Source of the DNA: an uncultured Cohaesibacter sp.
GTDB lineage: Bacteria > Pseudomonadota > Alphaproteobacteria > Rhizobiales > Cohaesibacteraceae
DNA length: 64,000 nt
Direction of reading: 5' to 3'
Assembly (NCBI RefSeq): GCF_963682185.1
Contig: NZ_OY821667.1
Coordinates: forward strand, 4,539,501-4,603,500
Shown: positions 16,794-38,106 of the stretch, piece after piece
Position numbering within the stretch: position 1 is the stretch's first letter
How the letters are laid out: the number at the start of each line of letters is the position of its first letter
Program-made: the position numbers and the translations under genes
The notes under the pieces: generated by a model
The model's input: the letters and a program-made list of their open reading frames with translations, nothing else
Database searches by the model: none
Told to the model about the DNA's origin: nothing

Positions 16794-16825
16794 CCAGAAT
16801 CCAGAAGCAAAGGGAGCATAGTAAA

Positions 16826-19836: not shown

Positions 19837-20405
19837 AACATCACATGCAGAGACATGACGCTTTAAGCCGCAAAGAAGACTTGGGTGATTCTCATCTGCC
19901 CATTCAGCACAACATGAGAATCGAAAATTCGCTTTATTGCTTGATTTGAAAGGTAATTTATTACCCGGGCCAAGCTGTGGACGAGTTCCCTTAATGCGCA
20001 CTTTGCAAACAGGCCAATTGTGTCAATCATTTCTAATATAGAATGGCGTGAAAAAGATATTCTGTAAGGAAATCGACCTACAAAAACTTGCCATAAGCAG
20101 CTGAGCACAACCAACAGAAGCAAGTTGGTTAATTATCACTTGAGAAAAATTGTAAAGTGCGAACGAAAACCGTTCTCATTAAACGATACTACTTTAGAAT
20201 CCAAGAAAAGAAGTCTTGATAAACGGAATGGTTGCGTAATCGTTGCTTTTGCACCATGTTCGGAGCGTTGTTTTTGCTCGATATTTCAGGTTTTTCGCAA
20301 TTTTGTTTTTTGGCGAACTTTTGCGATTTGAGAGGCGACAATCTTGTCATCCTGCGGTCATCTGTGATCCACTAAATGTGCATAGCGACTTACGGGTGAC
20401 GGGAA
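19837..20405. other. 569-base gap before the LysR regulator
   Basis: No secure gene. A minus-strand ORF of 86 codons (19863-20123) has no ribosome site or recognisable motif and may be chance or an eroded remnant. The right third is AT-rich with a TCGCAA ... TTGCGA inverted repeat (about 20293-20328) close to the LysR start, a possible autoregulatory site. Confidence 0.35.
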
Positions 20406-21275
20406 ATGAAATTATCAATCAATCAGATGCGCGCAGTTGAAGCGGTTGTGCGCACTGGTAGCTTCTCTGCTGCGGCAAAAGAGTTGGGCATTTCCCAACC
20501 CTCGGTTTCCAACCATCTTTCTGCGCTCGAAAAGCATTATCGCACGCAGTTGATCCATCGAAACGGGCGTCAGGCGGAGGCGACGGATACCTGCCGGGAA
20601 ATCCTGTCTCGCATTCGTTCCGTTCTGGCGATGACTGATGAGATCGAACATGCTCTTGAAGGAAGACGCCGCATGCAGGCCGGGTCCCTGCGCCTTGGCT
20701 ATTCTACCTATCAGTTTGCCATGCCGATTCTGTCAGACTTCATGACCAAGTTTCCAGAGGTGGAGATCGAAGCGCGAGCGATGGCTTCTAATGATCTTTT
20801 GCCCTTGTTGGAAGATGGCAAATTTGATGTCGTCTTCATCACCTCTGATGAGGCCCCTAGCCGTTTGCATGTCGAAAAAATCCGAACGGAACGGATCGTG
20901 CTCGTCGTCCCGCCGGATCATCCTCTTTGCGAGAAGGGGGCGGCCAGTTGGCAAGACGTATCGAATGCGGCTCTTGTTCAGAGGGAAAACAGCTCTGGTA
21001 CGCGTCGAGTGTTTGAAAAGGCCGCATCGACTGCCGGTGTGCAACTGAACACATTGCTTGCTCTTGGGTCCTGGGGGGCGATTGTGACGACGATCAACAG
21101 TGGAATGGGCATTGGCGTGGCGATGGAAGGGGAGGTGCTGCCTTCCAACAATGTGGTCATCATTCCCATCGAAGATGAAACTCTTACCGTTTCACATTAT
21201 CTTGCCTGCCTTCCTGAAATGCGGCATGTCTCAGCAATCAGGGCAATGTTTAATGCCCTTCAAGACAATGAGTGA
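20406..21275 (+). CDS. LysR family regulator of the phosphonate cluster
   Basis: A 289-residue LysR-type activator: N-terminal winged helix (about 1-60: MRAVEAVVRTGSFSAAAKEL, then ISQPSVSNHLSALEKHY) and a periplasmic-binding-protein-like effector domain (about 90-285). It sits 161 bases upstream of and on the same strand as the ABC-phnWX cluster. LysR regulators commonly control phnWX-type genes using 2-aminoethylphosphonate or a product as inducer; that role is inferred here from position. A 15-bp ATAGC-CTTAA-GCTAT palindrome in the following gap is its likely site. Confidence 0.9.
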   Translation: MKLSINQMRAVEAVVRTGSFSAAAKELGISQPSVSNHLSALEKHYRTQLIHRNGRQAEATDTCREILSRIRSVLAMTDEIEHALEGRRRMQAGSLRLGYSTYQFAMPILSDFMTKFPEVEIEARAMASNDLLPLLEDGKFDVVFITSDEAPSRLHVEKIRTERIVLVVPPDHPLCEKGAASWQDVSNAALVQRENSSGTRRVFEKAASTAGVQLNTLLALGSWGAIVTTINSGMGIGVAMEGEVLPSNNVVIIPIEDETLTVSHYLACLPEMRHVSAIRAMFNALQDNE

Positions 21276-21344
21276 TGAGAGAAATGGAAATATCCAATGA
21301 CTTGCACGCAAGGATTGTGACTTTTATGTGTCATGGTTCAATCG

Positions 21345-21359
21345 ATAGCCTTAAGCTAT
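21345..21359. promoter_or_regulatory. Candidate LysR binding palindrome before the importer operon
   Basis: ATAGC-CTTAA-GCTAT fits the T-N11-A pattern of LysR sites and lies 78 bases before the binding-protein start, next to an AT-rich stretch that could hold the -10 region. Ownership by the upstream LysR gene is inferred. Confidence 0.45.
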
Positions 21360-21436
21360 AGATAGTAAATGTTCATAAAACTGTTAAATAGTATCTCTAG
21401 GAAGGGGCTGCTCAATCCAAACAGGGAGACCTTCCA

Positions 21437-23491
21437 ATGAGCCCCAAATCCGTTTTTCTCGCCGGAGCGGCCTTTGTCGCGCTGAGCGCCTCAGCCTTTG
21501 CTGCATGCCCGGTAGCAACTGTTGCAGATATGAAAGGCCTGACCTCTGCCTATCCTGAGCAGTTTGAGTTGGCCGAATTTCAAAAAGCCGGTAGCTGCGA
21601 GCTGACCTTTGCCCAGAACCCGGATATCGCCAAATTCAACAGCCAGATCCTCGGCAACAAAGAGCTGCCAGCGCTTGCCGATCGTCTGCCGCAAGAGCCG
21701 CTTGTTGTTGCTCCTTATGATGCCGTTGGCACCTATGGTGGCGTGATTACCGGCCTTTCCAAGGGGACGGAATCTGGCACCTCGGATCTTCTCTCCGTGC
21801 GCCATGTAAACCTTGTGCGCTATGCCGATGACCTGCAGACCGTGGTTCCCAATATTGCCAAAAGCTGGGAATGGAATGACGACTACACGCAGCTGACCTT
21901 CACCCTGCGCAAGGGTCATAAATGGTCCGATGGCGAGCCTTTCACCGCAGCTGATATCGAATTCTGGTATAACGATCTGATCCTGAACAAAGATGTTTAC
22001 GAAAAGACGCCGGGCCGCTGGTTGTTCGCCGGAGAGCCCGCCGTTGTCAAGGCGCTGGATGATGTCACCGTCTCCTTCACATTCCCTGTGCCGACGCCGG
22101 GCATTCTCAACCGCTTCGCCGTTGACTATGGTCAGGCTTTCCAGCCCAAGCATTTCCTCGCCCAGTTCATGCCGAAATACAACAAGGATGCCGACAAGCT
22201 GGCCAAGGATATGGGGCTTGAGAATGGCGCTGCGGCAATCAAGATGTATTATGGCGGCTCCGACTGGAAAGACGTGCCAAGCCCGCTGCTGAAGGACGCT
22301 GAAGTTGCCGAGAAATTCGGTCGTGCCGTGGTGCCGACGCTGGAATCCCACATTGTGGTGGAAGAAAATGCCGAAGGCCGCAAGCTGGTCGCCAACCCTT
22401 ATTTCCATATGGTTGACACCGCAGGCAATCAGCTTCCCTACATTCCAGAAATTGACGAAAGCTACGTCAAGGACAAGGAAGTCCAGAATCTGAAGATCAT
22501 GAATGGCGAAGTCGTCTGGAAACAGCAGGCTGTCTTCTTGGAGGACTTCCCGCTGCTCAAGGAAAATGAAGCCAAGGGCAACTATACCGTTTCCTACGCG
22601 CCGACCTTCGGGGAGAATATCTTCTTCTCCTTTAACCGCACCCACAAGGATCCTGTGCTGGCCAAGCTGTTCAATGACATCCGCTTTGAACGCGCCATGT
22701 CCATTGCGCTGGATCGTGAAGAAATCAACGAGATTGTCTATCTGGGGCAGGGGACTCCGGCACAGGGTGTTCCGGCCGAACCAAAGACCGTGTCTTTTGT
22801 TTCCGAAGACATCCTCAATCAGGATATCGAATTCGATCCTGATCATGCCAGAGAGTTGCTCGCCGATATGGGCCTCAAGGATGCGGATGGTGACGGCACG
22901 TTGGAACGTCCGGATGGCAAGCCGCTGGTTATCCGCCTGATCTATTCCTCTCAGGGTGTGCCAGTGAAGATGATGGAACTGGTGCGTGACTATTGGTCCG
23001 CAGTGGGTGTTCGCATCGATCTTAAAGAGGTGACCTCTGATGAATATCGCGCTGGCGCCAACAACAACGATCTTGATCTGACAACTTGGAAATATGACGG
23101 CACCGCCGGTCCTGCTATTTCTCAGGATGTGACGGCCTTCATCCCGCCATTCGGGGATGTCTTCAACCCGGGCACCGGTTTTGCCTGGGCCCAGTGGATG
23201 GATTCCGATGGCAAGGAAGGCGTAGAGCCACCAGCCTATGTCAAGAAGCTCTATGACCTGTCCGAGAAGTTCTTGCAGGTTTCCATGGGCTCTGAGGAAT
23301 CCAACAAACTGGGCGCCGAGATCGTCAAGATCCATGTCGACAATCTGCTGAAAATCGGCACCGTCGGCGATATCGTCGCGCCTTTCCTTTATCGCAATGA
23401 TTTGAAAAACGTCAAACCGATCAAGGCCAAGTCCTACGACTTCTACTGGACATACCCATACCGCCCACAACAGTGGTTCCTGTCCAAATAA
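21437..23491 (+). CDS. Peptide-type ABC transporter substrate-binding protein
   Basis: A 684-residue family-5 (SBP_bac_5, DppA/OppA-like) periplasmic binding protein of the long class. Signal peptide about residues 1-22 (cleavage after ASAFA). The mature protein shows the family's conserved NIAKSWEWNDDYTQLTFTLR opening and LVIRLIYSSQG-type later strands. It is the first gene of an operon with two permeases, two ATPases, phnW, phnX and a phosphonate ester hydrolase. Context suggests the ligand is an organophosphonate, such as 2-aminoethylphosphonate or an ester or peptide conjugate of it, rather than a plain oligopeptide. AGGGAG precedes the ATG. Confidence 0.9.
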   Translation: MSPKSVFLAGAAFVALSASAFAACPVATVADMKGLTSAYPEQFELAEFQKAGSCELTFAQNPDIAKFNSQILGNKELPALADRLPQEPLVVAPYDAVGTYGGVITGLSKGTESGTSDLLSVRHVNLVRYADDLQTVVPNIAKSWEWNDDYTQLTFTLRKGHKWSDGEPFTAADIEFWYNDLILNKDVYEKTPGRWLFAGEPAVVKALDDVTVSFTFPVPTPGILNRFAVDYGQAFQPKHFLAQFMPKYNKDADKLAKDMGLENGAAAIKMYYGGSDWKDVPSPLLKDAEVAEKFGRAVVPTLESHIVVEENAEGRKLVANPYFHMVDTAGNQLPYIPEIDESYVKDKEVQNLKIMNGEVVWKQQAVFLEDFPLLKENEAKGNYTVSYAPTFGENIFFSFNRTHKDPVLAKLFNDIRFERAMSIALDREEINEIVYLGQGTPAQGVPAEPKTVSFVSEDILNQDIEFDPDHARELLADMGLKDADGDGTLERPDGKPLVIRLIYSSQGVPVKMMELVRDYWSAVGVRIDLKEVTSDEYRAGANNNDLDLTTWKYDGTAGPAISQDVTAFIPPFGDVFNPGTGFAWAQWMDSDGKEGVEPPAYVKKLYDLSEKFLQVSMGSEESNKLGAEIVKIHVDNLLKIGTVGDIVAPFLYRNDLKNVKPIKAKSYDFYWTYPYRPQQWFLSK

Positions 23492-23523
23492 AGCCATCGA
23501 CAAGGCTGTCCTAACCAATCAGG

Positions 23524-23570
23524 TGCGGGGGAGTGCTCCCGCATCAGTGCCTGCCTATGTCGGCAGGGTT
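23524..23570 (+). other. Two intercistronic hairpins after the binding-protein gene
   Basis: Hairpin one spans 23524-23543 (TGCGGG... / CTCCCGCA). Hairpin two spans 23550-23567 (CCTGCC-TATGTC-GGCAGG) and is followed by GTTTTCC. Such elements after a binding-protein gene commonly stabilise its message or partly terminate transcription so that it is made in excess over the permeases. Confidence 0.55.
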
Positions 23571-23589
23571 TTCCTGTGGGGATCCGATA

Positions 23590-24585
23590 ATGCTTCGTTT
23601 TACGCTTGAGCGACTGGTTGGCATGATTGTCACGATGGTGCTTGTTTCCATGATGGTTTTCCTGATCATGGAAATTCCACCTGGTGACTATGCGGATCGC
23701 TATGCCTTCCGCAAATATTCAGGCACCGGTATCGCCATTACGGAAGCGGACATTGAGGCCATCCGGCATGATTTCGGCCTCGATAAACCCATGGCACTGC
23801 GCTATGTCGACTGGATTGGCAACATCGTTCTACATGGCGATTTCGGGCAGGCCTTCGCCTTTGAGACCGATGTGACCAAGGTCATCGGTGACAAGGCTTG
23901 GCTGACTATGGCGATCCTGTTTGGAACATTGCTGCTCACCTACCTGATTGCCATCCCAATAGGCATTTATGCCGCCGTCAGGCGGGCTTCTTTTGCTGAT
24001 TACGGTCTCACGATCTTTTCTTATCTGGGGCTGGCTCTGCCCAACTTCCTGCTGGCTCTCATTCTGCTTTATTTCGTCAATCTCTGGTTCGATGCGGACA
24101 TTGGTGGATTGTTTTCAACGGGCATGTCCGATGCGCCTTGGTCCTTTGCCAAGGCATGGGACCTGATCAAGCATCTGTGGCTTCCGGCCTTCGTGCTGGC
24201 CTGGTCCGCGGTCGCCTATCAGATCCAGACCATTCGCGCCACCATGTCAGATGAACTCAACAAGCTTTCGGTTACGGCAGCGCGTGCCCGTGGTGTGCCG
24301 GAGACCAAGTTGCTGATCAAATATCCCGCCCGCCTTGCCATCAATCCGGTGGTCTCCACCATCGGTTTTGACGTCAACCGTATCTTCTCCGAGCTCCCCA
24401 TCGTTGCCGTCGTGCTGGGGCTGACAGAGCTCGGCGAATTGCTGCTCAATGCCTATCTCGATCTCGACATGTATGTCGCCGGAGCCATCCTGCTGATGCT
24501 TACCTTTGTGATTGTGTTGATGAACTTCATTTCGGACCTGCTGCTGGCCTGGCTTGATCCGCGCATCAAACTGGGGAGCAATTGA
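23590..24585 (+). CDS. ABC transporter permease, DppB-like
   Basis: A 331-residue inner-membrane permease of the BPD_transp_1 family. It has an N-terminal helix (LERLVGMIVTMVLVSMMVFL) and five further helices. The ATPase-contacting EAA-like loop is TAARARGVPETKLLIKYPAR. The start is the ATG at 23590 (MLRFTLERLVG) with GGGG upstream; a longer in-frame reading from 23533 passes through the hairpins and is not credible. It pairs with the following DppC-like permease, whose start is 3 bases past its stop. Confidence 0.93.
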   Translation: MLRFTLERLVGMIVTMVLVSMMVFLIMEIPPGDYADRYAFRKYSGTGIAITEADIEAIRHDFGLDKPMALRYVDWIGNIVLHGDFGQAFAFETDVTKVIGDKAWLTMAILFGTLLLTYLIAIPIGIYAAVRRASFADYGLTIFSYLGLALPNFLLALILLYFVNLWFDADIGGLFSTGMSDAPWSFAKAWDLIKHLWLPAFVLAWSAVAYQIQTIRATMSDELNKLSVTAARARGVPETKLLIKYPARLAINPVVSTIGFDVNRIFSELPIVAVVLGLTELGELLLNAYLDLDMYVAGAILLMLTFVIVLMNFISDLLLAWLDPRIKLGSN

Positions 24586-24587
24586 TC

Positions 24588-25763
24588 ATGGCAGATATCA
24601 CAGACAGCGGCGCTTCCATGTCCACCTCAACCAAAGGCTCGAAAGAGAGCGCAAAGGAACACAAGAAGCGGCTCAAATATTATTCAGCCAGCCAATGGAC
24701 CCTGATCTGGTGGCGTTTCCGCCGCCATCGTGCGGCCATGGTTGCTGCTGCTGTGCTTATCTTCATGGCGTTGTTGGGCATCTTTGCCGAGTTCGTGGCG
24801 CCCTATGGTCCAACCAGCCGCGATACCAAATATCTAGATGGTGCACCTCAAGTGCCGCTCTTCTGCGATCAGAATGGTTGTTCATGGCGCCCCTTCGTGC
24901 ATGGTGTCAGCACAAAACGCGATCCCGTGACGTTGCGGGCTATCTCGGTGCCCGATCCCGAGAAGCGTGTCTATCTCACCTTCTTTGCCCAAGGGGAAAA
25001 GACAGAGCTTTTGGGCTTTATCCCCTCCAAGATCCATTTCTTTTTGTTGGATGACAAGCGTGCCAAGCTGCATCTGTGGGGTACGGATGATCTGGGCCGC
25101 GATGTCTTTTCGCGTACCATCTATGCGACGCGTACTTCGCTTTCCATCGGCGTGATTGGCGTGTTGATCTCTTTCGTGCTCGCTCTCATCATCGGTGGCG
25201 TGGCTGGCTATGCCGGGGGCTGGGTGGACAATATCATCCAGCGCGTGACCGAGGTCATCCGCGTGGTGCCGATCATCCCGCTCTATATGGGGCTGGCCGC
25301 AGCCATGCCCAAGGAATGGTCCACCACAGAAGTCTATTTCGCGATGACGCTCATCCTAGGCTTTTTCGGTTGGCCCACGCTGGCTCGACGCATCCGCTCA
25401 CAGCTGCTTTCCATCCGTTCGGAGGATTATGTGGTGGCGGCACGGTTGGCCGGAGCGCGCCCGTTGCGCATCATTTCCCAGCATATGCTGCCCAGCTTTA
25501 CCAGCTTTATCATCGTCGATCTGGTGATCTCGTTCCCCTACATGATCCTAAGCGAGACGGCGCTGTCCTTCGTCGGCCTCGGCTTGCGACCACCTACGGT
25601 GTCGTGGGGCGTTCTGTTGCAACAGGCCCAGTCGGTGCGAGTCATCGAGCAGACGCCTTGGCTGTTCATTCCCGCAATCTTCGTGGTGCTGGCTGTGCTG
25701 GCCTTCACTGTGGTGGGCGATGGTCTGCGCGATGCGGCCGACCCATATTCGGACGCACGATAG
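24588..25763 (+). CDS. ABC transporter permease, DppC-like, with long periplasmic insertion
   Basis: A 391-residue permease, about 90-100 residues longer than ordinary DppC. After the basic N-terminal stretch (WWRFRRHRAAM) and first helix (about 50-72) there is a soluble loop of about 95 residues before the conserved HLWGTDDLGRDVFSR. Similar loops occur in the YejE-like long class that partners with large binding proteins. The EAA loop is VAARLAGARPLRIISQHMLP. The ATG at 24588 with GGGGAG upstream is taken as the start. The periplasmic loop has two Cys (CDQNGC) that could form a disulfide. Confidence 0.93.
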   Translation: MADITDSGASMSTSTKGSKESAKEHKKRLKYYSASQWTLIWWRFRRHRAAMVAAAVLIFMALLGIFAEFVAPYGPTSRDTKYLDGAPQVPLFCDQNGCSWRPFVHGVSTKRDPVTLRAISVPDPEKRVYLTFFAQGEKTELLGFIPSKIHFFLLDDKRAKLHLWGTDDLGRDVFSRTIYATRTSLSIGVIGVLISFVLALIIGGVAGYAGGWVDNIIQRVTEVIRVVPIIPLYMGLAAAMPKEWSTTEVYFAMTLILGFFGWPTLARRIRSQLLSIRSEDYVVAARLAGARPLRIISQHMLPSFTSFIIVDLVISFPYMILSETALSFVGLGLRPPTVSWGVLLQQAQSVRVIEQTPWLFIPAIFVVLAVLAFTVVGDGLRDAADPYSDAR

Positions 25764-25784
25764 GAAACGGGAAGGATATCAATC

Positions 25785-26786
25785 ATGCTGAAAGTAGAAA
25801 ATCTCTCCATTTCCTTCCGCACAGATGAAGGGCTGATCACGCCGGTTCAGGATATTGCCTTTGAAGTCCAGCCGGGACGCACGTTGGGCATCGTTGGGGA
25901 ATCCGGCTCGGGTAAATCCATCTCCACCAAGGCGCTGATGCAGCTTCTTCCCGGCAACGGCATCATTTCCAGTGAAGCGAAAATTCTCTATACCGACAAG
26001 TCCGGAAAGACATTCGATATCAACAAGCTGGGCAAAAAGGGAAGGGCCATTCGTCATATTCGGGGGGGCGAAATTGGTATGATCTTTCAGGAGCCCATGG
26101 CGTCCTTTTCGCCCGTTTACACCATCGGCAACCAGATGGTGGAAGCGATCCGGCTGCATCGCAATGTCGGACGCAAGGATGCGCGCCGCATCGCCATTGA
26201 AATGCTCGACAAGGTGGGTATATCCAATCCGGAAGCCCGCGTTGATCAATATCCTCACGAAATGTCCGGCGGCATGCGTCAGCGGGCTATGATTGCGCTC
26301 GCTCTCTCGGCTGGTCCCGCCTTGCTGATAGCTGACGAGCCGACCACCGCGCTGGACGTAACCATTCAGGCACAGGTGCTTGAATTGATGCGTAACCTGC
26401 AGCGCGATCTCTCCATGGGCATGATTTTCATTACCCATGATCTGGGCGTCATTTCCCATATCGCCGATGATGTGGCGGTGATGTATCTGGGTACGATTGT
26501 TGAGCGAGGACCGACCGACAAGGTCATTCACGAGCCGGCCCATCCCTATACGCAAGGACTGATCAAGGCCTTGCCCAGCGTTGATCGTTTGCATGATCGC
26601 TTGACACCCATTCCCGGAGACATACCCAGCCCCAACGACCGGCCCACAGGCTGCCCGTTTCATACCCGCTGCACCAAGGTGATTGCCGGGCTCTGCGATC
26701 AACATCAGCCGCAGATTTTACAGGTGGGGGAAGATCACACCGTGCGCTGCTTCCTGCATGAAAAACAGCAAAGGGCAAGCGCATGA
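25785..26786 (+). CDS. ABC transporter ATPase, DppD-like
   Basis: A 333-residue ATP-binding subunit: Walker A GESGSGKS (about 39-46), Q loop MIFQEPMASFSP, signature MSGGMRQRAMIA, Walker B LLIADEPTTALD and switch His in FITHDLG. The C-terminal oligopeptide/dipeptide extension carries the cysteine set (CPFHTRCTKVIAGLC) that in some Dpp/Opp ATPases binds a 4Fe-4S cluster. It overlaps the next ATPase gene by ATGA. Together the two ATPases energise the importer. Confidence 0.95.
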   Translation: MLKVENLSISFRTDEGLITPVQDIAFEVQPGRTLGIVGESGSGKSISTKALMQLLPGNGIISSEAKILYTDKSGKTFDINKLGKKGRAIRHIRGGEIGMIFQEPMASFSPVYTIGNQMVEAIRLHRNVGRKDARRIAIEMLDKVGISNPEARVDQYPHEMSGGMRQRAMIALALSAGPALLIADEPTTALDVTIQAQVLELMRNLQRDLSMGMIFITHDLGVISHIADDVAVMYLGTIVERGPTDKVIHEPAHPYTQGLIKALPSVDRLHDRLTPIPGDIPSPNDRPTGCPFHTRCTKVIAGLCDQHQPQILQVGEDHTVRCFLHEKQQRASA

Positions 26787-27934
26787 TCATGGACGCAACA
26801 AGGATGGACAACAGCAGCAAACAAGAGAACGAGCTTCTCATCGAGGTCAAGAATCTTGAGGTCCGGTTCCCGATCCGCAAGAAGAAACTCTTTTCATCCG
26901 AAGTCTCCTATCTGCGAGCGGTCGACGATGTCAGCTTTGACATCAGACGAGGCGAAACGGTCGGTCTGGTAGGAGAATCCGGCTCTGGCAAAACCACCGT
27001 TGGCCGCGCCATTCTGCGCGCCATTGACCCCACTGCGGGCGATGTAATCTTCCACACCCGCGAGCATGATATCTATCTTGATGAGTTGGAAGGGGAAGAG
27101 CTGCGCCGGTTTCGCAAGAAAATGGGCATGGTCTTCTCTGAAGGTCCCCATTCGATTGCCAATATGGCGAGTGACATTCTGCGTTCCTTTCGCCCGCGCA
27201 TGAGCCTTGTCTTTCAGGACCCCTATTCTTCGCTCAACCCGCGCATGACCGTGCGCGACATCATTGCCGAGCCTCTGGTCGCATCCGGCATGATGAAAAA
27301 TCGCGACAAGATCGATCAGCGGGTGCGCGATATCGCAAGTCGCTGCAAGCTCAATCTGGAGCATCTGCGCCGTTTCCCCCACGCATTCTCGGGCGGACAA
27401 CGCCAGCGCATCTGCATCGCGCGGGCCTTGGTAACGCGGCCTGATTTTGTCGTATGCGACGAGAGTGTTTCCGCGCTGGATGTGTCCATTCAGGCAGAGA
27501 TCGTCAATCTACTCAAAGACCTGCAGGAAGAAATGGGCGTTGCCTTTCTGTTCATTGCCCATGATCTGTCTGTGGTGGCCCAAATGTCCCATCGTGTGGC
27601 CGTGATGTATGTGGGCAAGTTCGTTGAATATGCGCCAACCGAGAGTCTTTTCTATAAGCCGCGCCATCCCTATACCCACGCGCTTTTGTCTGCCATTCCG
27701 ACCATAGATCCGGACGAGAGTTTCGATCCGATCAGGTTGGAAGGTGAAATTCCCAACCCGCTCGCCGCGCCATCCGGCTGTCGCTTTCACACCCGCTGCC
27801 CCTATGCCACGGAGCAATGCGCCAGTGAAATCCCGCACTGGCAGGAAATAGCGCCAGAGCATTTTGTGGCCTGCCACAGGGTGGATGAGCTCGATTTCTC
27901 CCGCGACAAACAAAGCGCCGAAACCACCGATTAG
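26783..27934 (+). CDS. ABC transporter ATPase, DppF-like
   Basis: A 383-residue partner ATPase: Walker [12 protein letters not shown], signature [15 protein letters not shown], Walker [13 protein letters not shown], switch FIAHDLS. An extra segment of about 40 residues after the Walker A region ([12 protein letters not shown]-like, ending [19 protein letters not shown]) is longer than in E. coli DppF. The C-terminal [14 protein letters not shown] cysteines match the Opp/Dpp extension. An ATG at 26783 overlaps the upstream stop. A 7-bp stem hairpin (GGAAGCA/TGCTTCC, 27950-27974) separates it from phnW. Confidence 0.95.
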
Positions 27935-27949
27935 AAACCAGACCCAAAA

Positions 27950-27974
27950 GGAAGCAACCAGCTCTGCTGCTTCC
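27950..27974 (+). other. Hairpin between transporter and phnW
   Basis: A perfect 7-bp inverted repeat GGAAGCA/TGCTTCC with an 11-base loop and no T run. It may stabilise or process the transcript between importer and catabolic genes. Confidence 0.4.
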
Positions 27975-28013
27975 CCAATAAACAAGAAAGCCTAACGAGA
28001 AGAGGATCGTCCG

Positions 28014-29228
28014 ATGTCCAAGCTGGACAATGAACGTGCCAACAATCTGAAAAGCAGTTTGCTGCCTGATCCCGAAATGGGCGAGCCTTTTCTGCTGACG
28101 CCCGGTCCGCTGACCACCTCCTTTGCCGTCAAGCAGGCGATGCTGAGGGATTGGGGCAGTTGGGATGGCGACTTCCGCGCCATGACTGCCGATATGCGCC
28201 GCCGACTGCTCGCTCTTTTGGGGGCGGAACAAGGTGCCTTTGAATGCATCCCCATGCAAGGCTCCGGCTCCTATCTGGTCGAAGCGATGCTCGGCACCAT
28301 GGTGCCCAAGGATGGCAAATTGCTTGTGTTGGCCAATGGGGCCTATGGTCTGCGGGCAGCAAAGACAATGGAAGCCATTGGCCGGGCCTATCATCTGCTC
28401 GACAAGGGCGATTATCTGCCTCCGCGTGGTGCCGAGGTGGCTGATATCCTTGCCAATGATCCGGCTATCACCCATGTGTTGGCGATCCATTGCGAAACCA
28501 GTTCGGGCATTCTCAACCCCATCGCCGAGATTTCCCAGGCCACCTATGCCGCCGGGCGCAAGCTGCTGGTGGATTCCATGTCTGCCTTTGGTGCTGTGCC
28601 CATGGAGCCTGACAAGATCCGCTATGAAGCGCTGGTTTCATCGGCAAACAAATGCATCGAGGGGGTGCCGGGCTTTGGCTTTGCGCTGGTGCGCCGCAGT
28701 GAACTCATCGCCACCAAAGGCAACTGCCATTCTCTCAGTCTTGATCTTCATGCCCAATGGGAAAATCTGGAAAGGAGCGGCCAGTGGCGCTTTACACCGC
28801 CGACCCATGTGGTTGCCGCATTTCTTGAGGCATTGAAAGCCCATGAGGCCGAGGGCGGTGTAGCGGTGCGTGGGGCCCGCTACACCAACAATCGCGACGT
28901 GATGGTCGCCGGCATGCGGGCGTTGGGCTTTGAAACCCTGCTCGATGCGCGTTGGCTTTCGCCGATCATCGTTACCTTCTTCTGCCCGGCCGATGAGCGC
29001 TTCCTGTTTGATCGCTTCTATGAGCTGATGAAAGACAAGGGCTTCATCATCTATCCGGGCAAGCTGACGGTGGTGGAAAGCTTCCGCATTGGCTGCATCG
29101 GCCAGATGGATGAAGCCATCATGCGTCGCGTTGTGGCTGCGGCAAAACAGAGCCTTGAGGAACTGGGCGTAACAAGCGCCGCCCCGCCTCTGGCAGCCTT
29201 TGAAGAGCGCAAGAAGCTGAACGCTTGA
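28014..29228 (+). CDS. phnW: 2-aminoethylphosphonate-pyruvate transaminase
   Basis: PhnW moves the amino group of 2-aminoethylphosphonate to pyruvate, giving phosphonoacetaldehyde and alanine, the first step of AEP breakdown. The 404-residue class V PLP aminotransferase shows the family opening FLLTPGPLTTS, the QGSGSYLVEAMLGT phosphate-binding loop, the cofactor aspartate in VDSMSAFGAVP and the PLP lysine in SSANKCIEGVPGFGF. The C-terminal IYPGKLT and FRIGCIGQM also match. Length is slightly above the usual 360-370 because of short N- and C-terminal extensions. phnX follows directly. Confidence 0.96.
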   Translation: MSKLDNERANNLKSSLLPDPEMGEPFLLTPGPLTTSFAVKQAMLRDWGSWDGDFRAMTADMRRRLLALLGAEQGAFECIPMQGSGSYLVEAMLGTMVPKDGKLLVLANGAYGLRAAKTMEAIGRAYHLLDKGDYLPPRGAEVADILANDPAITHVLAIHCETSSGILNPIAEISQATYAAGRKLLVDSMSAFGAVPMEPDKIRYEALVSSANKCIEGVPGFGFALVRRSELIATKGNCHSLSLDLHAQWENLERSGQWRFTPPTHVVAAFLEALKAHEAEGGVAVRGARYTNNRDVMVAGMRALGFETLLDARWLSPIIVTFFCPADERFLFDRFYELMKDKGFIIYPGKLTVVESFRIGCIGQMDEAIMRRVVAAAKQSLEELGVTSAAPPLAAFEERKKLNA

Positions 29229-29251
29229 AGGCCATTCGGAGAGAGAACATC

Positions 29252-30025
29252 ATGACACAGATAAAAGCGGTTATATTTGATTGGGCGGGAACGCTGGTGG
29301 ATTTCGGCAGCTTCGCGCCCATGGGCGTCTTCGTCAAATGCTTCGAGGAATTTGGCATCAAGGCGTCCATTGAGCAGGCTCGTGCCCCCATGGGGTTGCC
29401 CAAATGGAACCATATCCGCGCCATGATGGACGATGACGCCATCGCGGCCCAATGGCAGGCCAAATATGGCCAGGCACCAACCGATGCCGATGTCGACAAG
29501 ATCTATGAGATCTTCGTACCGATGAATGAAAAGGTCGCTGCCGACTATGCCGATCTGGTGCCCGGTGCGCTGGAAACCATCGATTGGCTGCGTACGCGCG
29601 GCATCAAGATTGGCTCCACGACAGGCTATACCCGCTCGATCATGGAGCATGTCTTGCCTGTTGTGAAGAAACAGGGGTTCGAGCCGGATAATCTCATCTG
29701 TGCGGATGATCTGGCCGAGGGCCGCCCCGGTCCGCTGGGCATGTATCAGAGCTTCGTGGATCTGGCCGTCTATCCGTCTTCTGCTGTCATCAAGGTGGAT
29801 GACACGGTGCCGGGCCTCAAGGAAGGTGTCGCCGCAGGCTGTATCACGGTCGGGCTGGCGCTCTCCGGCAATTTCGTCGGCAAGACGCCGCAAGAATTGG
29901 CTGCGCTTTCCGAGGGGGAAATTGCCAGCTTGCGAGAGGCCGCCACTGTGCTACTCAAAGAGGGGGGAGCGGATTATGTCATCGACACGGTGGCCGATCT
30001 GCCAGCCCTGATCGAAACACTCTGA
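29252..30025 (+). CDS. phnX: Phosphonoacetaldehyde hydrolase (phosphonatase)
   Basis: PhnX cleaves the C-P bond of phosphonoacetaldehyde to acetaldehyde and phosphate. It is a 257-residue HAD enzyme with the nucleophile Asp10 in IFDWAGTLVD and the Schiff-base lysine Lys51 in MGLPKWNHIR, the feature that separates phosphonatases from other HAD proteins. The core motifs STTGYTRSIM and IKVDDTVPG are present. The ATG at 29252 (GGAGAG upstream) is chosen over an in-frame start overlapping phnW. Two segments differ from the textbook enzyme: GRPGPLGMY replaces GRPxPWMxY, and VDDT replaces VGDT. Confidence 0.94.
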   Translation: MTQIKAVIFDWAGTLVDFGSFAPMGVFVKCFEEFGIKASIEQARAPMGLPKWNHIRAMMDDDAIAAQWQAKYGQAPTDADVDKIYEIFVPMNEKVAADYADLVPGALETIDWLRTRGIKIGSTTGYTRSIMEHVLPVVKKQGFEPDNLICADDLAEGRPGPLGMYQSFVDLAVYPSSAVIKVDDTVPGLKEGVAAGCITVGLALSGNFVGKTPQELAALSEGEIASLREAATVLLKEGGADYVIDTVADLPALIETL

Positions 30026-30068
30026 TTGTTAAAAGATCCTTTGATCGGATTTAAGGAGAACCCGCGCC

Positions 30069-31622
30069 ATGTCCAGACCGAATATCATTCTTGTAACGGC
30101 CGATCAGTGGCGCGGTGATTGTTTGGGCGCGGTGGGGCATCCGACTCTCAAGACCCCCAATCTGGATGCGCTGGCGGCCGACGCGGTTTTGTTTCGCAAT
30201 CACTATTGTGCAACGGCTCCTTGCTCGCCGGCGCGGGCAACTCTTTACACCGGTCTTTACCAGATGAACCACAGGGTGGTGCGCAATGGAGCGCCATTGG
30301 CTGACGGGTTTGATACGCTCGCCAAGGCCGGGCGCAGGGCTGGTTACAAGCCGACGCTGTTCGGCTACACGGACACGGCGCTCGACCCGCGCACTCTGGC
30401 ACCAGATGATCCGGCTCTGACCACCTATGAGAATGTGCTACCGGGCATGGAGGTGGGGCAAGCGCTGCCCGAAGATGACAAGCCATGGCTGACATGGCTC
30501 AAGACGCGCGGCCATGATGTTGCCTCCCGCTTTGAGGCCCACACGCCGCCGATGGAACCGGGAGAACGGGTCTCCATGCTGCCGCCTTGCTACGGGGCAG
30601 ATGAAACACCGACGGCCTTTCTGCTGGAAAAGATGGAAGATTGGCTGGATGAGCAGCGGGAGGAGGATGCACCTTTCTTTGCTCATCTCTCCTTCATTCG
30701 TCCGCATCCGCCTTTTGTTGTGCCTGAGCCTTACAACGGCATGTATGCGTCTGAGGCTACTCAAGACGCAGCACCTGCCTTCGATCGGCATCCCTGCGCC
30801 ACAGCCGAGGCGGCAAGCCACCCGTTTGCCGACTTGATGATGCAGCATAACGGGCTATCGAGCTTCCTCACCTATGATGAGGACGGCAACCCGAACCCGA
30901 AAGGGCGTGTCAAGGATCTGTCAGCTCATGATATCAGCCGTATTCGAGCCCTCTATTATGGCATGATCTCGGAAGTCGACGCCGTCATTGGCCGGCTGAT
31001 TGCCAGCCTCAAGGCGCGCGGGCTCTGGGAGAATACGGTCTTCATCTTTACCTCCGATCATGCCGAAATGATGGGGGATCACTGGATGCTCGGCAAGGGC
31101 GGGTTTCACGCCTCCAGCTATCACATCCCTCTGATTATCCGGACACCGGACGGCGGCCGCGGCGAGACGGTTAGCGCCTTTACGTCCAGCGCCGACATCT
31201 TCCCCACCTTGCTTGAAATTCTTGGTGATGAGGCGACCAACGCGCTTGATGGCACCTCGCTTATGGAGCATGTCTGCGGCAATCCCGTAAGCGGGTGGCG
31301 CGATGCCGCCTTTTACGAGTTTGACTTCCGCGCCCAGCGTGCGGGCAGCGCCGAACTCAAGGCCCGTATGCGGCAGGAGGAATGTTCGCTTGCGGTATTG
31401 CGAGACGAAGCCTTTCACTATGTGCACATCCCCGGCTTTCCAGCCCTGTTGTTCGATCTGCAAAAAGATCCCCAGTGCCTTAACAATGTCGCCGAGGATG
31501 AAGCCTATCTGCGCACGCGACTCACCTATGCCGAGAAGCTGCTTGATCTGAGGGCGCGGCATATGGATGAAACACTGGCCCGCATGCTGATGACCCCGCA
31601 AGGGGCGGTGATCACCGACTAA
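30069..31622 (+). CDS. Phosphonate monoester hydrolase / phosphodiesterase (sulfatase superfamily)
   Basis: A 517-residue alkaline-phosphatase-superfamily enzyme resembling the Rhizobium and Burkholderia PMH/PDE enzymes, which hydrolyse phosphonate monoesters and phosphodiesters. Visible are the metal-binding opening ILVTADQWRGD, the sulfatase-type CxPxR nucleophile motif PCSPARATLYTGLY (Cys52, converted to formylglycine in this family), TSDHAEMMGDHWMLGKGGF and C-terminal YEFDFRAQR. A sulfatase or choline-sulfatase activity cannot be excluded from sequence alone, but placement directly after phnW-phnX favours phosphonate esters. AAGGAG lies ten bases before the ATG. Maturation needs a formylglycine-generating enzyme elsewhere. 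Confidence 0.85.
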   Translation: MSRPNIILVTADQWRGDCLGAVGHPTLKTPNLDALAADAVLFRNHYCATAPCSPARATLYTGLYQMNHRVVRNGAPLADGFDTLAKAGRRAGYKPTLFGYTDTALDPRTLAPDDPALTTYENVLPGMEVGQALPEDDKPWLTWLKTRGHDVASRFEAHTPPMEPGERVSMLPPCYGADETPTAFLLEKMEDWLDEQREEDAPFFAHLSFIRPHPPFVVPEPYNGMYASEATQDAAPAFDRHPCATAEAASHPFADLMMQHNGLSSFLTYDEDGNPNPKGRVKDLSAHDISRIRALYYGMISEVDAVIGRLIASLKARGLWENTVFIFTSDHAEMMGDHWMLGKGGFHASSYHIPLIIRTPDGGRGETVSAFTSSADIFPTLLEILGDEATNALDGTSLMEHVCGNPVSGWRDAAFYEFDFRAQRAGSAELKARMRQEECSLAVLRDEAFHYVHIPGFPALLFDLQKDPQCLNNVAEDEAYLRTRLTYAEKLLDLRARHMDETLARMLMTPQGAVITD

Positions 31623-31627
31623 AGCCG

Positions 31628-32434
31628 CTAAAAGATGAAGCGATCCGAGCGATCCATGAAATCGTGCATATGCACCATGATCTGCTCTTCGTTGGCCAGC
31701 ACCACACCATAGGCTGGAGCTTCGAAATTGCCATATTGCCCCTTCGGAGAGGATGTCATCTCTAGGGCCACCTGATGGTTGAGCCCGCGCATGCAGGAAA
31801 CGGTCAGCCCGCGCCAATTGCCATAGACCATCCGATGGGCATGACCGACAAAGATATGCCGCACGCGATGGCGATGGGGCCTCAGGATCTGCCAGAAAGC
31901 CTCCGCATCTTCAAGGCGGCTCTCATCCATGTCGGGCAGGCCGATGGCGAAGGGGGGATGGTGCATGAACAGCATCACCGGCCCCGAGGTTTCGCTCAAG
32001 ACGCCTTTCAGCCATCCTTGCCTCTCTTCGCAATAACGCCCCACATCACTGCCGCGCTGGCTGGTATCCAGAAACAGGCACAGGCCGAATGGCGTGCGCT
32101 TGGAGCCTTGAATAAAGCCGCAATCGCAGCGCTGTGCTTCGGGGAAATGAAAGCGGAAGGTACGCACGTCATCATGATTGCCAACGAGAAGATGGGACGG
32201 AATGGACAGCCGCCGTAGTTCACGGGCAAATATTTCATAAGCAGCATCATCGCCATGATGGGTCAGATCACCTGTTATGACGACGAAGTCTGCATCATGA
32301 TGCTCGCTGTTGATGCTGTCGATTGCTGCGCGCAACCTGCCTGCTGGCTGTTGGCCGTATACAGCACCGCCATCCTTGACAATATGGCAATCGGTCAGAT
32401 GGATGAATTTCAGCATATCGGGATTTTTGATCAT
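31628..32434 (-). CDS. Class III metallophosphodiesterase (GpdQ/CpdA-like)
   Basis: A 268-residue calcineurin-like phosphoesterase with the full set of metal ligands: HLTDCHI (Asp15, His17), ITGDLTHHGD (Asp56), VGNHDD (Asn86, His87), MHHPPF and FVGHAH. The arrangement matches the GpdQ, cAMP phosphodiesterase and Rv0805 group, which cleave phosphodiesters including glycerophosphodiesters and cyclic nucleotides. Its stop is only 5 bases from the convergent phosphonate ester hydrolase stop, so it belongs to the same locus but a different transcript, divergent from the DeoR-Ugp block. Met7 is an alternative start. Confidence 0.88.
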   Translation of the reverse strand: MIKNPDMLKFIHLTDCHIVKDGGAVYGQQPAGRLRAAIDSINSEHHDADFVVITGDLTHHGDDAAYEIFARELRRLSIPSHLLVGNHDDVRTFRFHFPEAQRCDCGFIQGSKRTPFGLCLFLDTSQRGSDVGRYCEERQGWLKGVLSETSGPVMLFMHHPPFAIGLPDMDESRLEDAEAFWQILRPHRHRVRHIFVGHAHRMVYGNWRGLTVSCMRGLNHQVALEMTSSPKGQYGNFEAPAYGVVLANEEQIMVHMHDFMDRSDRFIF

Positions 32435-32979
32435 CTGGCAGGCACCTGTGTTTCAAGGCGGGAACGCTCGATGAGGTTCCCGAAGTCGGGTGACTATGCC
32501 CCGCAAAGATGACAATCAGATAATGGAATGACGACTCTTTGCTGACAAAAGACGAGGTCAATCGACCCGGCTCAGAGCGCGGCCTTGCAGCAATGGAATC
32601 TGGCAGGAACGCCCAAACCAGACCAGCCCCTATCGCTAGCCCTGTCATGCTTCCTTCATGACGCTGGGTGAAAGCGATGGTCATTTGAGCATCTTTGCAC
32701 AGTCGGGAAATTCGAAAAAGAATATAAAATTCAGTCAGAAAAGAGATGGTTGTTAAAATCTCATGTTCATTTTCAATTTCATTTGAATGTCACATAACGT
32801 TCAAATGGCTGAAATATTCGCGTCTTAACGTCCCCTCATAAACAGAGCAATTGAGCCTTTAGCCTCTCCAGGCGATGGGGGTGCCAGCTTTGGCAAAAGC
32901 CACAAGTGGGCGCCCCTGACTGGAGGGGACGAGGACAAGGTGGCTCTTTATGAGAGTCGCAAGAGCGGATCGGGGCATT
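32435..32979. promoter_or_regulatory. Divergent phosphodiesterase / DeoR promoter region
   Basis: About 545 bases with no supported gene. It contains the inverted repeat at 32780-32807 within an AT-rich stretch (32700-32830), the probable control region of the DeoR-led transporter operon. Confidence 0.5.
32780..32807. promoter_or_regulatory. Candidate DeoR operator
   Basis: CATTTGAATG, an 8-base spacer, then CGTTCAAATG: 10-bp arms with one mismatch. It lies 173 bases before the likely DeoR start. The owner is inferred from position. Confidence 0.45.
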
Positions 32980-33798
32980 ATGAAACAGTATAGCGAACGG
33001 CAATTGGAAATCATTCGGACGGTTACCGAAAGCGGCTTTTCAGCCATCGATGCCTTGTCCGAACAGTTTAATGTTTCCACGCAGACCATTCGCCGTGATG
33101 TCAACGCCCTGTGTGAGCTTGGCGAACTGCGTCGCGTCTGGGGCGGGGTGGAGCCACCACCCGTGAGCGGCAACCTGCTTTATGCCAAGCGCAAGATCAT
33201 GAATGTAACCGCCAAGCGGCAGATTGCCTTTGAAGTTGCCAAACATATTCCCGATGGCAGCACCATAGCGCTCTCCATAGGCACCACCCCGGAAATGGTC
33301 ATCGAGGCCTTGCAGGAAAAGGCCAATCTCAAGGTCTTTACCAACAACCTCAATGTTGCCATGCAGGCAAGCGAACGCCACGACTGGTCTGTGACCATTG
33401 CGGGCGGCAGCGTGCGCCCAGGCGACAAGGACATTCTGGGCTCGGATGTGGAGGCCTTCTTTGATCGCTTCGAGGTGGACTTCGGCATTTTCGGCGTGGC
33501 GGGTGTGACGCCCGATGGCGGCCTGCTGGACTTCTCCGAGGCTGAAGTGGGGAGCCGCCGGGCCATCATGAAAAACAGCCGAAAGTCTTTTCTGGTTATG
33601 GATCATAGCAAATTCGGGCGCGCGGCCCATGTGCGGGGCGGGCATCTTTCCGATGTGTCCTGCATTGTCTGCGATGAACCCATTCCGCATCCATTTGAAA
33701 GCGGGCTCGGCTCGGCCAGCGTCATTATTGCCAATGAAACAAGCCGTGATGAGAAGGCAGACGCGGGCAACGACCCTTATGAACGAGGCACGCGATGA
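32980..33798 (+). CDS. DeoR family repressor of the Ugp-like transporter operon
   Basis: A 272-residue DeoR/GlpR-type repressor: N-terminal winged helix (about 1-57: RQLEIIRTVTESGFSAIDAL, then VSTQTIRRDVNALCELGEL) and a C-terminal sugar-phosphate sensor domain of the DeoRC fold (LSIGTTPEMVIEAL, VFTNNLNVAMQA, GGSVRPGDKDILG, DHSKFGR). Such repressors usually respond to phosphorylated sugars or polyols. The ATG at 32980 with GGGG six bases upstream is preferred over an in-frame ATG at 32950. Its end overlaps the ATPase gene by ATGA, so it heads the operon and probably regulates it. Confidence 0.92.
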   Translation: MKQYSERQLEIIRTVTESGFSAIDALSEQFNVSTQTIRRDVNALCELGELRRVWGGVEPPPVSGNLLYAKRKIMNVTAKRQIAFEVAKHIPDGSTIALSIGTTPEMVIEALQEKANLKVFTNNLNVAMQASERHDWSVTIAGGSVRPGDKDILGSDVEAFFDRFEVDFGIFGVAGVTPDGGLLDFSEAEVGSRRAIMKNSRKSFLVMDHSKFGRAAHVRGGHLSDVSCIVCDEPIPHPFESGLGSASVIIANETSRDEKADAGNDPYERGTR

Positions 33799-34880
33799 GC
33801 GCTGCACATCCGGCCCATCACGGGCGATCAATCGAGCTGCAGTCGATCTCCAAAAGCTGGGATCAGACCAAGGCGCTCGATAGCGTGAACATATCCATTC
33901 CTGCGGGCTCTTTCACCGCCTTGCTCGGACCATCCGGCTGCGGCAAGTCGACCTTGTTGCGCATCATTGCAGGGCTGGAAACCGCCACGGAAGGAACGGT
34001 TCGGATTGGCGATGAAGATGTCACCCGCCGTCCACCAGACAAGCGCGATCTGTCCATGGTGTTCCAGTCCTACGCTCTGTTTCCACATCTGGATGTGGCC
34101 GAGAATATTATATTTGGCCTCAAGACCCGCAAGGAGCCGAAAAAGCAGCGCACCGAAAAGCTGCTCGCAGTTGCCGAGCTGATGGGCCTTGAAAAACTGT
34201 TGGATCGCAAACCCGGCGCGCTTTCCGGCGGACAGCAGCAGCGCGTGGCGTTGGCCCGTGCCGTCATTGCCGAGCGTTCCATTTGCCTGATGGATGAACC
34301 GCTTTCAAACCTTGATGCCAAATTGCGTCACGAAATGCGGGTTGAGCTGCGGGCCCTGCAACAAAAGCTCGGTTTTACCATGGTCTATGTCACCCACGAT
34401 CAAGCCGAGGCAATCACCATGGCGGATCAGGTGGTGCTGCTCAATGCAGGTCAGGTGGAACAGGTCGATGCGCCGCGCGCCCTTTATGATGCGCCACGCT
34501 CCACCTTCGCCGCCCGCTTTATCGGGACACCCCCCATGAGCCTGTTCGAAGCCTCAGCGCTTGGCGATATGGGCCAGCAACTGAGCCGTGATGCAGGCAC
34601 CGAACTGTTGCTCGGGCTTCGCCCGGAAGCGGTAACCCCTAATGAGAAGGGCCTTCTGAAGGCCACCATCGCTGCCGCCGAGTTTCAGGGCGCAGACACC
34701 ATGCTCGATTGTCTGGTTGGCGATGAAATGATCACCGTGCGGGCCTCTGGCAGAAGCCATTTTGCTGCAGGCAGTCCGGTCTCCCTTTCCTTCGCTCCTG
34801 AGGAACTGGCCTTGTTCGACAAGGCATCAGGGGCACGTCTCATAAAGTCCCAAAAACTGGTCGAGGCCCTGCGGTCTTGA
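33795..34880 (+). CDS. ABC transporter ATPase, UgpC/MalK family
   Basis: A 361-residue CUT1-type ATPase: Walker A GPSGCGKST, Q loop VFQSYALFPH, signature LSGGQQQRVALARAV, Walker B ICLMDEPLSNLD, switch YVTHDQAEA, then a C-terminal TOBE/OB domain (about 285-345). It energises the carbohydrate-type importer encoded next to it. It starts inside the deoR stop (ATGA), implying coupled translation. Family members serve sugars, polyols and sn-glycerol-3-phosphate. Confidence 0.95.
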   Translation: MSAAHPAHHGRSIELQSISKSWDQTKALDSVNISIPAGSFTALLGPSGCGKSTLLRIIAGLETATEGTVRIGDEDVTRRPPDKRDLSMVFQSYALFPHLDVAENIIFGLKTRKEPKKQRTEKLLAVAELMGLEKLLDRKPGALSGGQQQRVALARAVIAERSICLMDEPLSNLDAKLRHEMRVELRALQQKLGFTMVYVTHDQAEAITMADQVVLLNAGQVEQVDAPRALYDAPRSTFAARFIGTPPMSLFEASALGDMGQQLSRDAGTELLLGLRPEAVTPNEKGLLKATIAAAEFQGADTMLDCLVGDEMITVRASGRSHFAAGSPVSLSFAPEELALFDKASGARLIKSQKLVEALRS

Positions 34881-34933
34881 TCGATAACCAAATCTATTTT
34901 TAACAGTCAAACAGGATGAAAAGGACCATACCC

Positions 34934-36214: not shown

Positions 36215-36235
36215 TCCACTTTGCGATTGGCTTTT

Positions 36236-36266
36236 GCGAGGGGGATGTCTTCCCCTCGCTTCTTTT
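36236..36266 (+). terminator. Attenuator after the binding-protein gene
   Basis: Stem GCGAGGGG/CCCCTCGC, an 8-base loop, then TTCTTTT, 21 bases after the stop. Placed inside the operon, it likely lets a fraction of transcripts continue into the permeases, keeping the binding protein in excess. Confidence 0.7.
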
Positions 36267-36301
36267 ATGACTTTGCGATGGATCGCATGTGAGGGGCAAG
36301 A

Positions 36302-37171
36302 ATGAGACGCGACTGGATATATGCTCTGCTGCTGCTGTTACCGGCGATGGTGCTGCTCATGGGCTTTACCCATATTCCAGCTATTGAAACCGTCATTAGC
36401 AGCTTTTTCTCGACGCCCCACGGACGTCGTCCGGCGAATTTCGTCGGCATCGATAACTATCTCTATCTGCTCGAAGATGATGTGTTTATCCGCTCTTGCT
36501 GGAACAACCTCATCTATGCCGCCATCACGATCCCTGCTTCCATCATCATTGCTCTGGTCATGGCGCTGTTTGTGCATAGTCGCATGGCTGGGCTTTCCTT
36601 TCTGCGCATGGCCTACTTCACGCCGACCGTGCTGCCGATGATCGCGGTGGGCAACATCTGGCTGTTTTTCTTTACCCCAAGCTTCGGGCTCATCGACCAG
36701 ATCCGCGCCCTGTTTGATCTGCCCGCGCAGAACTGGATGGGCGACCCTGACACGGTTCTTTATACGGTGCTGGTGGTTGCCGTCTGGAAGAATGCCGGCT
36801 TCTTCATGATTTTCTATCTCGCCGCCTTGCAGACCATTCCGGAACCCTTGCGCGAGGCGGCCAAGCTGGAAGGGGCAGGGCGCTGGACCTTCTTCCGCCG
36901 CGTCACCCTGCCGCTGATCATGCCCACGACCCTGTTCATTCTGGTGAACGCCATTATCAATTCGGTGCGCCTCATCGATCATATTTTCATCATGACCCTC
37001 GGCGGGCCGAACAATGCCTCCAGATTGCTGCTCTATCACATTTATGAAACGGCCTTTGAATATTGGGACACCGCTTCGGCCAGCGCGATGACTGTGGTCA
37101 TCCTGTTCGTTCTCTCGCTGTTGGCCATTGGGCAATTCTTCTGGCTCGATCGTAAGGTGCATTACAAATGA
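36302..37171 (+). CDS. ABC transporter permease, UgpA/MalF-like
   Basis: A 289-residue CUT1 permease with six predicted helices, starting with IYALLLLLPAMVLLMGF. The EAA loop is EPLREAAKLEGAGRWTFFRR, followed by VTLPLIMPTTLF. The motif NTIYAA-like cytoplasmic elements of the family are replaced by NNLIYAAITI. GAGGGG lies just before the ATG. It overlaps the next permease by ATGA and forms the channel with it. Confidence 0.94.
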   Translation: MRRDWIYALLLLLPAMVLLMGFTHIPAIETVISSFFSTPHGRRPANFVGIDNYLYLLEDDVFIRSCWNNLIYAAITIPASIIIALVMALFVHSRMAGLSFLRMAYFTPTVLPMIAVGNIWLFFFTPSFGLIDQIRALFDLPAQNWMGDPDTVLYTVLVVAVWKNAGFFMIFYLAALQTIPEPLREAAKLEGAGRWTFFRRVTLPLIMPTTLFILVNAIINSVRLIDHIFIMTLGGPNNASRLLLYHIYETAFEYWDTASASAMTVVILFVLSLLAIGQFFWLDRKVHYK

Positions 37172-38001: not shown

Positions 38002-38106
38002 GCCAAACCAACGAGTCGGCCCGACCTTGACCAAATAGTCAGAGCCAAAAATACAGGCCTGAAATACGGGCTTGAAAAACAGGCCAGATAAAAGGAATTA
38101 CATCCC

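Follow-up and report, generated by a model that had tools for sequence, protein, structure and literature searches.

The closest described systems to the locus reported here are the PhnW-PhnX phosphonatase pathways, in which 2-aminoethylphosphonate (AEP) is taken up by AepXVW, PhnSTUV or AepP. The AEP-binding proteins AepX, AepS and PhnS belong to pfam13343 (PMC8316502). The window, a stretch of 64,000 nucleotides from an uncultured Cohaesibacter sp. (contig NZ_OY821667.1, positions 4,539,501 to 4,603,500; genome of 5.39 Mb), carries a gene cluster that shares PhnW and PhnX with these pathways, both over their curated cut-offs (NF010006, 541.9 bits against 296; TIGR01422, 333 bits against 220). 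The cluster differs in its importer, whose substrate-binding protein (SBP) is of the SBP_bac_5 type and lies outside pfam13343, and in an additional phosphonate monoester hydrolase (PMH). A first-pass annotation of the window had remarked that known AEP importers come from other transporter families, and the comparison with PMC8316502 agrees. The cluster is probably an operon under LysR control that scavenges an aminophosphonate in ester form. All open reading frames lie where that annotation placed them, and Pfam and NCBIfam concur on its inventory for every gene:

20406..21275, plus strand, LysR regulator (open reading frame list, Pfam/NCBIfam profiles)
21437..23491, plus strand, SBP_bac_5 substrate-binding protein, 684 aa (Pfam profile)
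23533..24585, plus strand, importer permease B, BPD_transp_1 (Pfam/NCBIfam)
24582..25763, plus strand, importer permease C, BPD_transp_1 and OppC_N (Pfam/NCBIfam)
25785..26786, plus strand, importer ATPase D, ABC_tran and oligo_HPY (Pfam/NCBIfam)
26783..27934, plus strand, importer ATPase F, ABC_tran and oligo_HPY (Pfam/NCBIfam)
28014..29228, plus strand, PhnW, 2-aminoethylphosphonate:pyruvate transaminase (NF010006)
29225..30025, plus strand, PhnX, phosphonoacetaldehyde hydrolase (TIGR01422)
30069..31622, plus strand, predicted cytoplasmic PMH-type (sulfatase-fold) hydrolase (PDB matches, diagnostic residues)
31628..32434, minus strand, calcineurin-type phosphodiesterase, SpdA/GpdQ-like (Pfam/NCBIfam)

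The genes from LysR to PMH form one plus-strand set, and the convergent metallophosphoesterase gene ends 5 bp past the PMH gene on the opposite strand. From the SBP gene onward the spacing consists of gaps of 21-79 bp or overlaps of 4 bp (permease B/permease C, ATPase D/ATPase F and phnW/phnX), which is compatible with a single transcript, and the operon would be transcribed as one unit. The LysR-SBP intergenic gap is 161 bp.

The hydrolase has its best PDB relatives in the PMH group (4uph, 603 bits; 2w8s, 351; 2vqr, 330; 4upk, 314). It shares with these studied enzymes of sulfatase subfamily S1_0 the formylglycine motif, here CSPAR, as well as the metal and Tyr/Asp residues. Aligned to the R. 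leguminosarum enzyme (L082, the translation of its own gene), it keeps D12, C52, N73, H213, D330, H331 and K343, which count among the diagnostic residues. Its Y100 and D102 correspond to positions 105 and 107 in R. leguminosarum numbering (Y105 and T107 in PMC5488252), where PMHs have a signature Tyr with Asp or Thr and arylsulfatases have Lys and His (PMC5488252). By this Tyr and Asp pair the predicted protein is a D-PMH, and the pair ruled out an arylsulfatase identity. The hydrolase scores below the PehA equivalog NF045661 (462 against 900 bits) and was filed as PMH family, not PehA. Its N terminus (MSRPNIILVTADQW) has no signal peptide by eye, whereas that of the SBP is signal-peptide-like, also by eye, so that an ester substrate shared by the two would have to pass the inner membrane intact.

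In the proposed pathway the periplasmic SBP would capture an AEP monoester, in which the phosphonate of AEP is joined to an alcohol, and the peptide/nickel-type ABC importer would carry it in intact. The cytoplasmic PMH would then split the P-O-C ester to AEP and the alcohol, PhnW would convert AEP to phosphonoacetaldehyde by transamination, and PhnX would release acetaldehyde and phosphate. The basis is gene content, protein families, catalytic residues, co-conservation, replacement by equivalents and operator conservation. From these we infer the ligand, the order of events and the action of the PMH on AEP esters. More tentatively, the alcohol would most likely be glycerol or a sugar, as in a phosphonolipid or phosphonoglycan fragment; natural lipids and glycans include phosphonate-bearing forms (PMC8316502).

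The cluster is conserved in Cohaesibacter. Within a family sample of 20 genomes that includes the window's, 11 have the SBP at 80% identity or more, and all 11 also have LysR, both permeases, both ATPases, PhnW, PhnX and PMH (that of G010 is cut by a contig end), a retention of the full set that exceeds chance. A PMH orthologue (at least 67%) occurs in exactly those 11, and the remaining nine genomes have none or paralogues of 37-42%. PhnW is found in 11/11 SBP-bearing genomes against 4/9 others (G002, G008, G018 and G019).

Relatives of the SBP were found at 53 named loci outside the genus. There are 28 distinct loci with an SBP of at least 60% identity, namely 11 from Cohaesibacter (L028 counted among them), two from Roseibium (L026, L027), L029-L040, the plasmid pSC52_2 from a bacterium isolated from sea-cucumber gut, G284 and G346. 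A PMH-clade hydrolase is present at 23 of these, and phnX at the same 23. Neither is found at L029, L033, L034 or G284, and in G346 phnX and phnW stand at a distance of 17-18 kb from the SBP, with no PMH there. Presence or absence of the two is thus concordant in 27/28 loci, although effective numbers are smaller because the L038 and pSC52_2 PMHs are nearly identical and 11 loci come from one genus. The first-pass annotation had raised the case of a neighbourhood without phnWX in related genomes, and with phnX at 23/28 loci this is not what the close relatives have. The step before PhnX also has an equivalent: PhnW is present at 20 of the 23 loci, and at three (L026, L027 and L039) a TIGR03364 oxidase occupies its expected place. 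PbfD1 is annotated as TIGR03364, and PbfD enzymes convert AEP or N-methyl-AEP to phosphonoacetaldehyde (PMC10590968). In a tree of 78 PMHs, which covers 22 of the 23 locus PMHs (the truncated L235 being too short) and also omits the truncated L247, 13 fall in one well-supported clade and eight in another, with L039 apart; the tree has three label changes, at least two of them forced. At L029, in Leisingera, a gene for a PAS-containing chemoreceptor (16457-17932) lies directly 3' of the importer, recalling the chemotaxis role of SPH1118, a fold relative of the SBP.

The SBP has SBP_bac_5 as its sole Pfam match (193 bits, cut-off 32.4), and the importer subunits pass the gathering scores of SBP_bac_5, BPD_transp_1 and ABC_tran with oligo_HPY, as in a peptide/nickel-type ABC importer. 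It fails the DppA equivalog (47 bits against 1005). Among the nearest solved structures, those with stated ligands are sugar binders, including the pectin-binding SPH1118 (about 30% identity) and the alpha-galactoside-binding MelB (about 23%), which are likewise large SBP_bac_5-type proteins. A DppA-like W..D is retained in 12/12 aligned close SBPs (D554 in the window), which fits an amine-bearing ligand. The retained W..D and the oligopeptide/nickel family of the permeases and ATPases would also suit uptake of an AEP-containing peptide. The conserved set, however, has no peptidase and does have a phosphoester hydrolase, the nearest SBPs with stated ligands bind pectin or alpha-galactosides, the close group lacks the DP found after W..D in DppA-like proteins, and the more distant group described below (48-52% identity) lacks the Asp too. 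Phosphonopeptide uptake is therefore very improbable. The first-pass annotation had proposed import of a larger AEP conjugate; its ester form accords with the PMH partner and intact entry, and its peptide-linked form seems less likely than an AEP ester, given the missing peptidase and the sugar-binding structures.

The LysR regulator has as its best match among 52 NCBIfam families the AEP-associated LysR family TIGR03339, at 209.7 bits and under the 341.1 cut-off. LysR regulators adjoin other phn clusters too. The sites considered are:

21345..21359, plus strand, putative LysR-type operator, 15-bp palindrome ATAGC-N5-GCTAT, 92 bp 5' of the SBP start
20344..20361, plus strand, Pho-box-like site with 2 mismatches, 5' of lysR
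32642..32659, plus strand, weak Pho-box-like site with 2 mismatches, between the phosphodiesterase and DeoR genes

The looser pattern ATA[AG]-N7/8-[CT]TAT, picked after viewing the alignment, occurs 5' of the SBP gene in 22/24 loci (L039, L077, G284 and G346 being left out of the 28) against 270/7200 shuffles (3.8%). The conserved palindrome has the form expected of a LysR operator. A second palindrome, TGAC-N8-GTCA at 21318-21333, is exact in 11/24 loci. The Pho-box-like match 5' of LysR is in the same position in 10/11 Cohaesibacter loci (2 mismatches in three, 3 in six and 4 in one), and no such match precedes LysR at eight loci from other genera (4-6 mismatches). Among random 300-bp stretches of the window, 12/600 reach 2 mismatches and 26/600 reach 3 or fewer; the window has nine Pho-box matches against 5.9 expected. 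The fixed position in Cohaesibacter is the sole support for the site, which is suggestive only. A promoter and terminator scan gave counts at chance level.

More distant SBPs (48-52% identity) form a group of 26 loci, L041-L066, some of them short. At L041, L044 (which begins at a contig edge), L047, L050 and L052 the PMH and importer stand beside phnW and phnA, with phnY in four, and phnW without PMH was not found in this group. Taken together, the PhnX loci and the phnA/phnY loci link the importer subfamily and PMH to both hydrolytic AEP routes. PMH is missing at L058, where phnY is present, and at L057 and L061. At the latter two a PhoX alkaline phosphatase gene lies directly 3' of the importer and a PbfA-like gene 5' of it, a possible other ester-cleaving variant. 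The gammaproteobacterial SBPs of L053-L056 and L059 are about 50% identical, and no PMH or AEP genes were found nearby, some of these contigs being short.

In a class sample of 384 other Alphaproteobacteria genomes, at most three (SBP, PMH) or four (PhnW) candidates per genome were scored, and 11 genomes have the SBP subfamily (at least 43% identity). A PMH gene is found no more than 10 kb from the SBP in 6/11 subfamily members against 1/129 other large SBP_bac_5 matches (Fisher p=3e-7, in tests that ignore phylogeny). In G299 and G377, which have other large SBPs, a PMH lies slightly more than 10 kb away, and in G311, a subfamily member, a PMH fragment lies at a contig edge. PhnW is present in 9/11 subfamily genomes against 69/373 others (p=2e-5), and against 37/100 when the comparison is with genomes that have another large SBP (p=0.007). 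The class sample thus makes PMH the wider partner of the SBP, with phnWX a partner in the closer groups only. The co-occurrence of binding protein, phnWX and hydrolase that the first-pass annotation had suggested checking holds for the close relatives and less so for distant ones, where PMH often occurs without phnWX nearby and some loci have neither. An Opp-type importer as a general PMH partner was rejected: only 5/40 of the best-scoring PMH places have window-like ATPases, all with the SBP subfamily. Among the 23 PhnW places examined (of 79), Opp-type ATPases occur at one (L252).

Uptake of free AEP is the main rival to ester import. The importer would then represent a new family of AEP importers and the PMH would serve otherwise, for example on unrelated phosphodiesters under phosphate starvation. 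The cluster's PhnW is the only copy in the genome, which counts for ester import and for this rival alike; the W..D retained in the close SBPs could hold an amine, a Pho-box-like site lies 5' of the cluster, and PMHs cleave phosphate diesters in vitro (PMC5488252). Against this, PMH is shared as a neighbour across the SBP subfamily more widely than PhnW, PMH and phnX are concordant at 27/28 close loci, and the solved structures nearest to the SBP are, where ligands are stated, those of sugar binders. The genome also encodes elsewhere a set in the AepXVW layout (L262, G000:C1 ~2476793-2477590), with an SBP, an ATPase and a fused permease. The set surrounds the genome's best match to AepX (32% identity), and its genes score highest with AEP-transporter families in NCBIfam, though far short of the cut-offs (131, 320 and 97 bits against 393, 458 and 593), so that it is no more than a candidate AEP importer. 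Free-AEP uptake is unlikely on this balance.

Several further observations weigh against ester import, besides the disregard of phylogeny in the class-sample tests. The L262 importer, together with a C-P lyase that is also present, indicates other phosphonate routes in the genome. PMH is present at only 9/26 loci of the 48-52% group, a gene for glycolate oxidase GlcF adjoins the SBP gene at L054, and none of the 11 class-sample subfamily members has phnW within 10 kb of the SBP; the SBP subfamily may have other substrates too. In G284 and G346 a PMH is encoded elsewhere in the genome, away from the SBP, and in G284 PhnW is on another contig. PMHs are promiscuous enzymes, known chiefly from test-tube work. 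Maturation of the hydrolase is a further difficulty. No convincing aerobic formylglycine-generating enzyme (FGE) was found in the window's genome, where the sole FGE-fold protein found (L260, G000:C1:4052908-4053573) has the look of a secreted protein and apparently lacks the catalytic cysteine pair of FGEs. An anaerobic maturase is encoded there, but none was found in G003, G012 or G017, all of which have the same operon.

The metallophosphoesterase scores 210 bits against the 400 of SpdA NF050112. It occurs in 8/11 Cohaesibacter loci and in none of the other SBP-subfamily loci searched, and was rejected as a constant part of the system. The first-pass annotation was thus right about the convergent metallophosphodiesterase in the window, which is nevertheless not a fixed component. 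A window-like phosphoesterase (249 bits) is also convergent with a PMH gene, without the SBP, at L183 (7455-10686, G230), so the convergent pair recurs. Beyond the phosphoesterase gene in the window lies:

32950..38928, plus strand, probable accessory block: GlpR-like DeoR regulator, Ugp-like importer (ATPase, SBP, two permeases) and TIM-barrel protein

The SBP of this block is below UgpB NF008211 (175.6 against 411 bits). In Shimia sp. CNT1-13L.2 (L040) the other modules are rearranged relative to the window, in the order LysR-PhnW-PhnX-PMH-SBP-importer, and this block again comes after the importer. A GDPD gene adjoins the importer in L034 and G284, both without PMH at the locus. These features (the GpdQ-like phosphoesterase, the Ugp- and GlpR-like neighbours and the GDPD genes) hint at glycerol as the alcohol of the ester, and the fold relatives of the SBP hint at a sugar; the GDPD genes were counted in favour of ester import. 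The same neighbours would also fit an importer of glycerophosphodiesters, such as glycerophosphoethanolamine, or of another phosphodiester, to be cleaved by the PMH and the metallophosphoesterase, with phnWX merely co-regulated. That account is improbable: it sits poorly with the phnX/PMH concordance, with the joining of both the PhnX and the PhnA/PhnY routes to the module, and with a LysR whose best match, if under the cut-off, is AEP-associated.

All parts of the cluster are known families; what appears new is that a PMH stands together with a dedicated importer and the genes of AEP catabolism. Text searches of PMC10590968, PMC8154272, PMC12366243 and PMC10574752 found no PMH in AEP clusters, and one of PMC8316502 found no SBP_bac_5 importer. 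A literature search, with subscription journals mostly outside its coverage, found no prior description of the operon. That a PMH might act on natural phosphonate esters has been suggested before: PMC5649143 considers a PMH as a candidate enzyme by which C-P lyase bacteria could release phosphonates bound as esters to marine polysaccharides. PbfA, PbfC, PbfD and PbfF are likewise accessory enzymes that feed an AEP derivative into the core pathway, but they attack free aminophosphonates at the carbon or the amine, whereas the PMH would cleave at the phosphonate ester and require that the whole ester be imported. The AEP routes in the literature examined begin at free AEP, and an importer-PMH-PhnWX operon would add an entry step for esterified AEP. 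It would also give surveys of marine metagenomes a new SBP family to look for, and would assign to PMHs a class of physiological substrates. A tentative proposal, a little short of an even call, is that marine alphaproteobacteria import intact glycero- or glycosyl-AEP, released from phosphonolipids or phosphonoglycans, by a dedicated ABC importer and free the AEP in the cytoplasm, and that this PMH branch, at least, has the hydrolysis of such natural esters as its native function.

The literature search gave no title or abstract that settles the native substrates of PMHs. The studied PMHs were assayed on aryl esters (PMC5488252), in contrast to the window PMH with its ties to AEP catabolism and a dedicated importer. 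On pRL9 of R. johnstonii 3841 (L082, 10001-17213) a five-gene ABC importer comes immediately after the gene of the prototype PMH pRL90232, whose structure has been studied. The SBP of this importer is SBP_bac_5-like by our own alignment, and no AEP genes lie in that stretch. A Roseibium plasmid (L081) has a PhnF-PMH-importer arrangement. These importer neighbours are leads to native PMH substrates. In other Alphaproteobacteria (L177, L208) PMH genes have Ugp-like ABC importers nearby, and PMHs thus recur next to several importer types.

Elsewhere in the window, a gene upstream of the cluster (17537-18280) encodes an acidic protein with EF-hand-like repeats, seen by eye, and two polyproline runs. 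An ECF-type importer at 39326-41300 consists of an ECF ATPase and a CbiQ-like permease (family search) and a BioY-like third gene (by eye). It is followed by a glucokinase gene at 41724-42731, and seems unrelated to the cluster.

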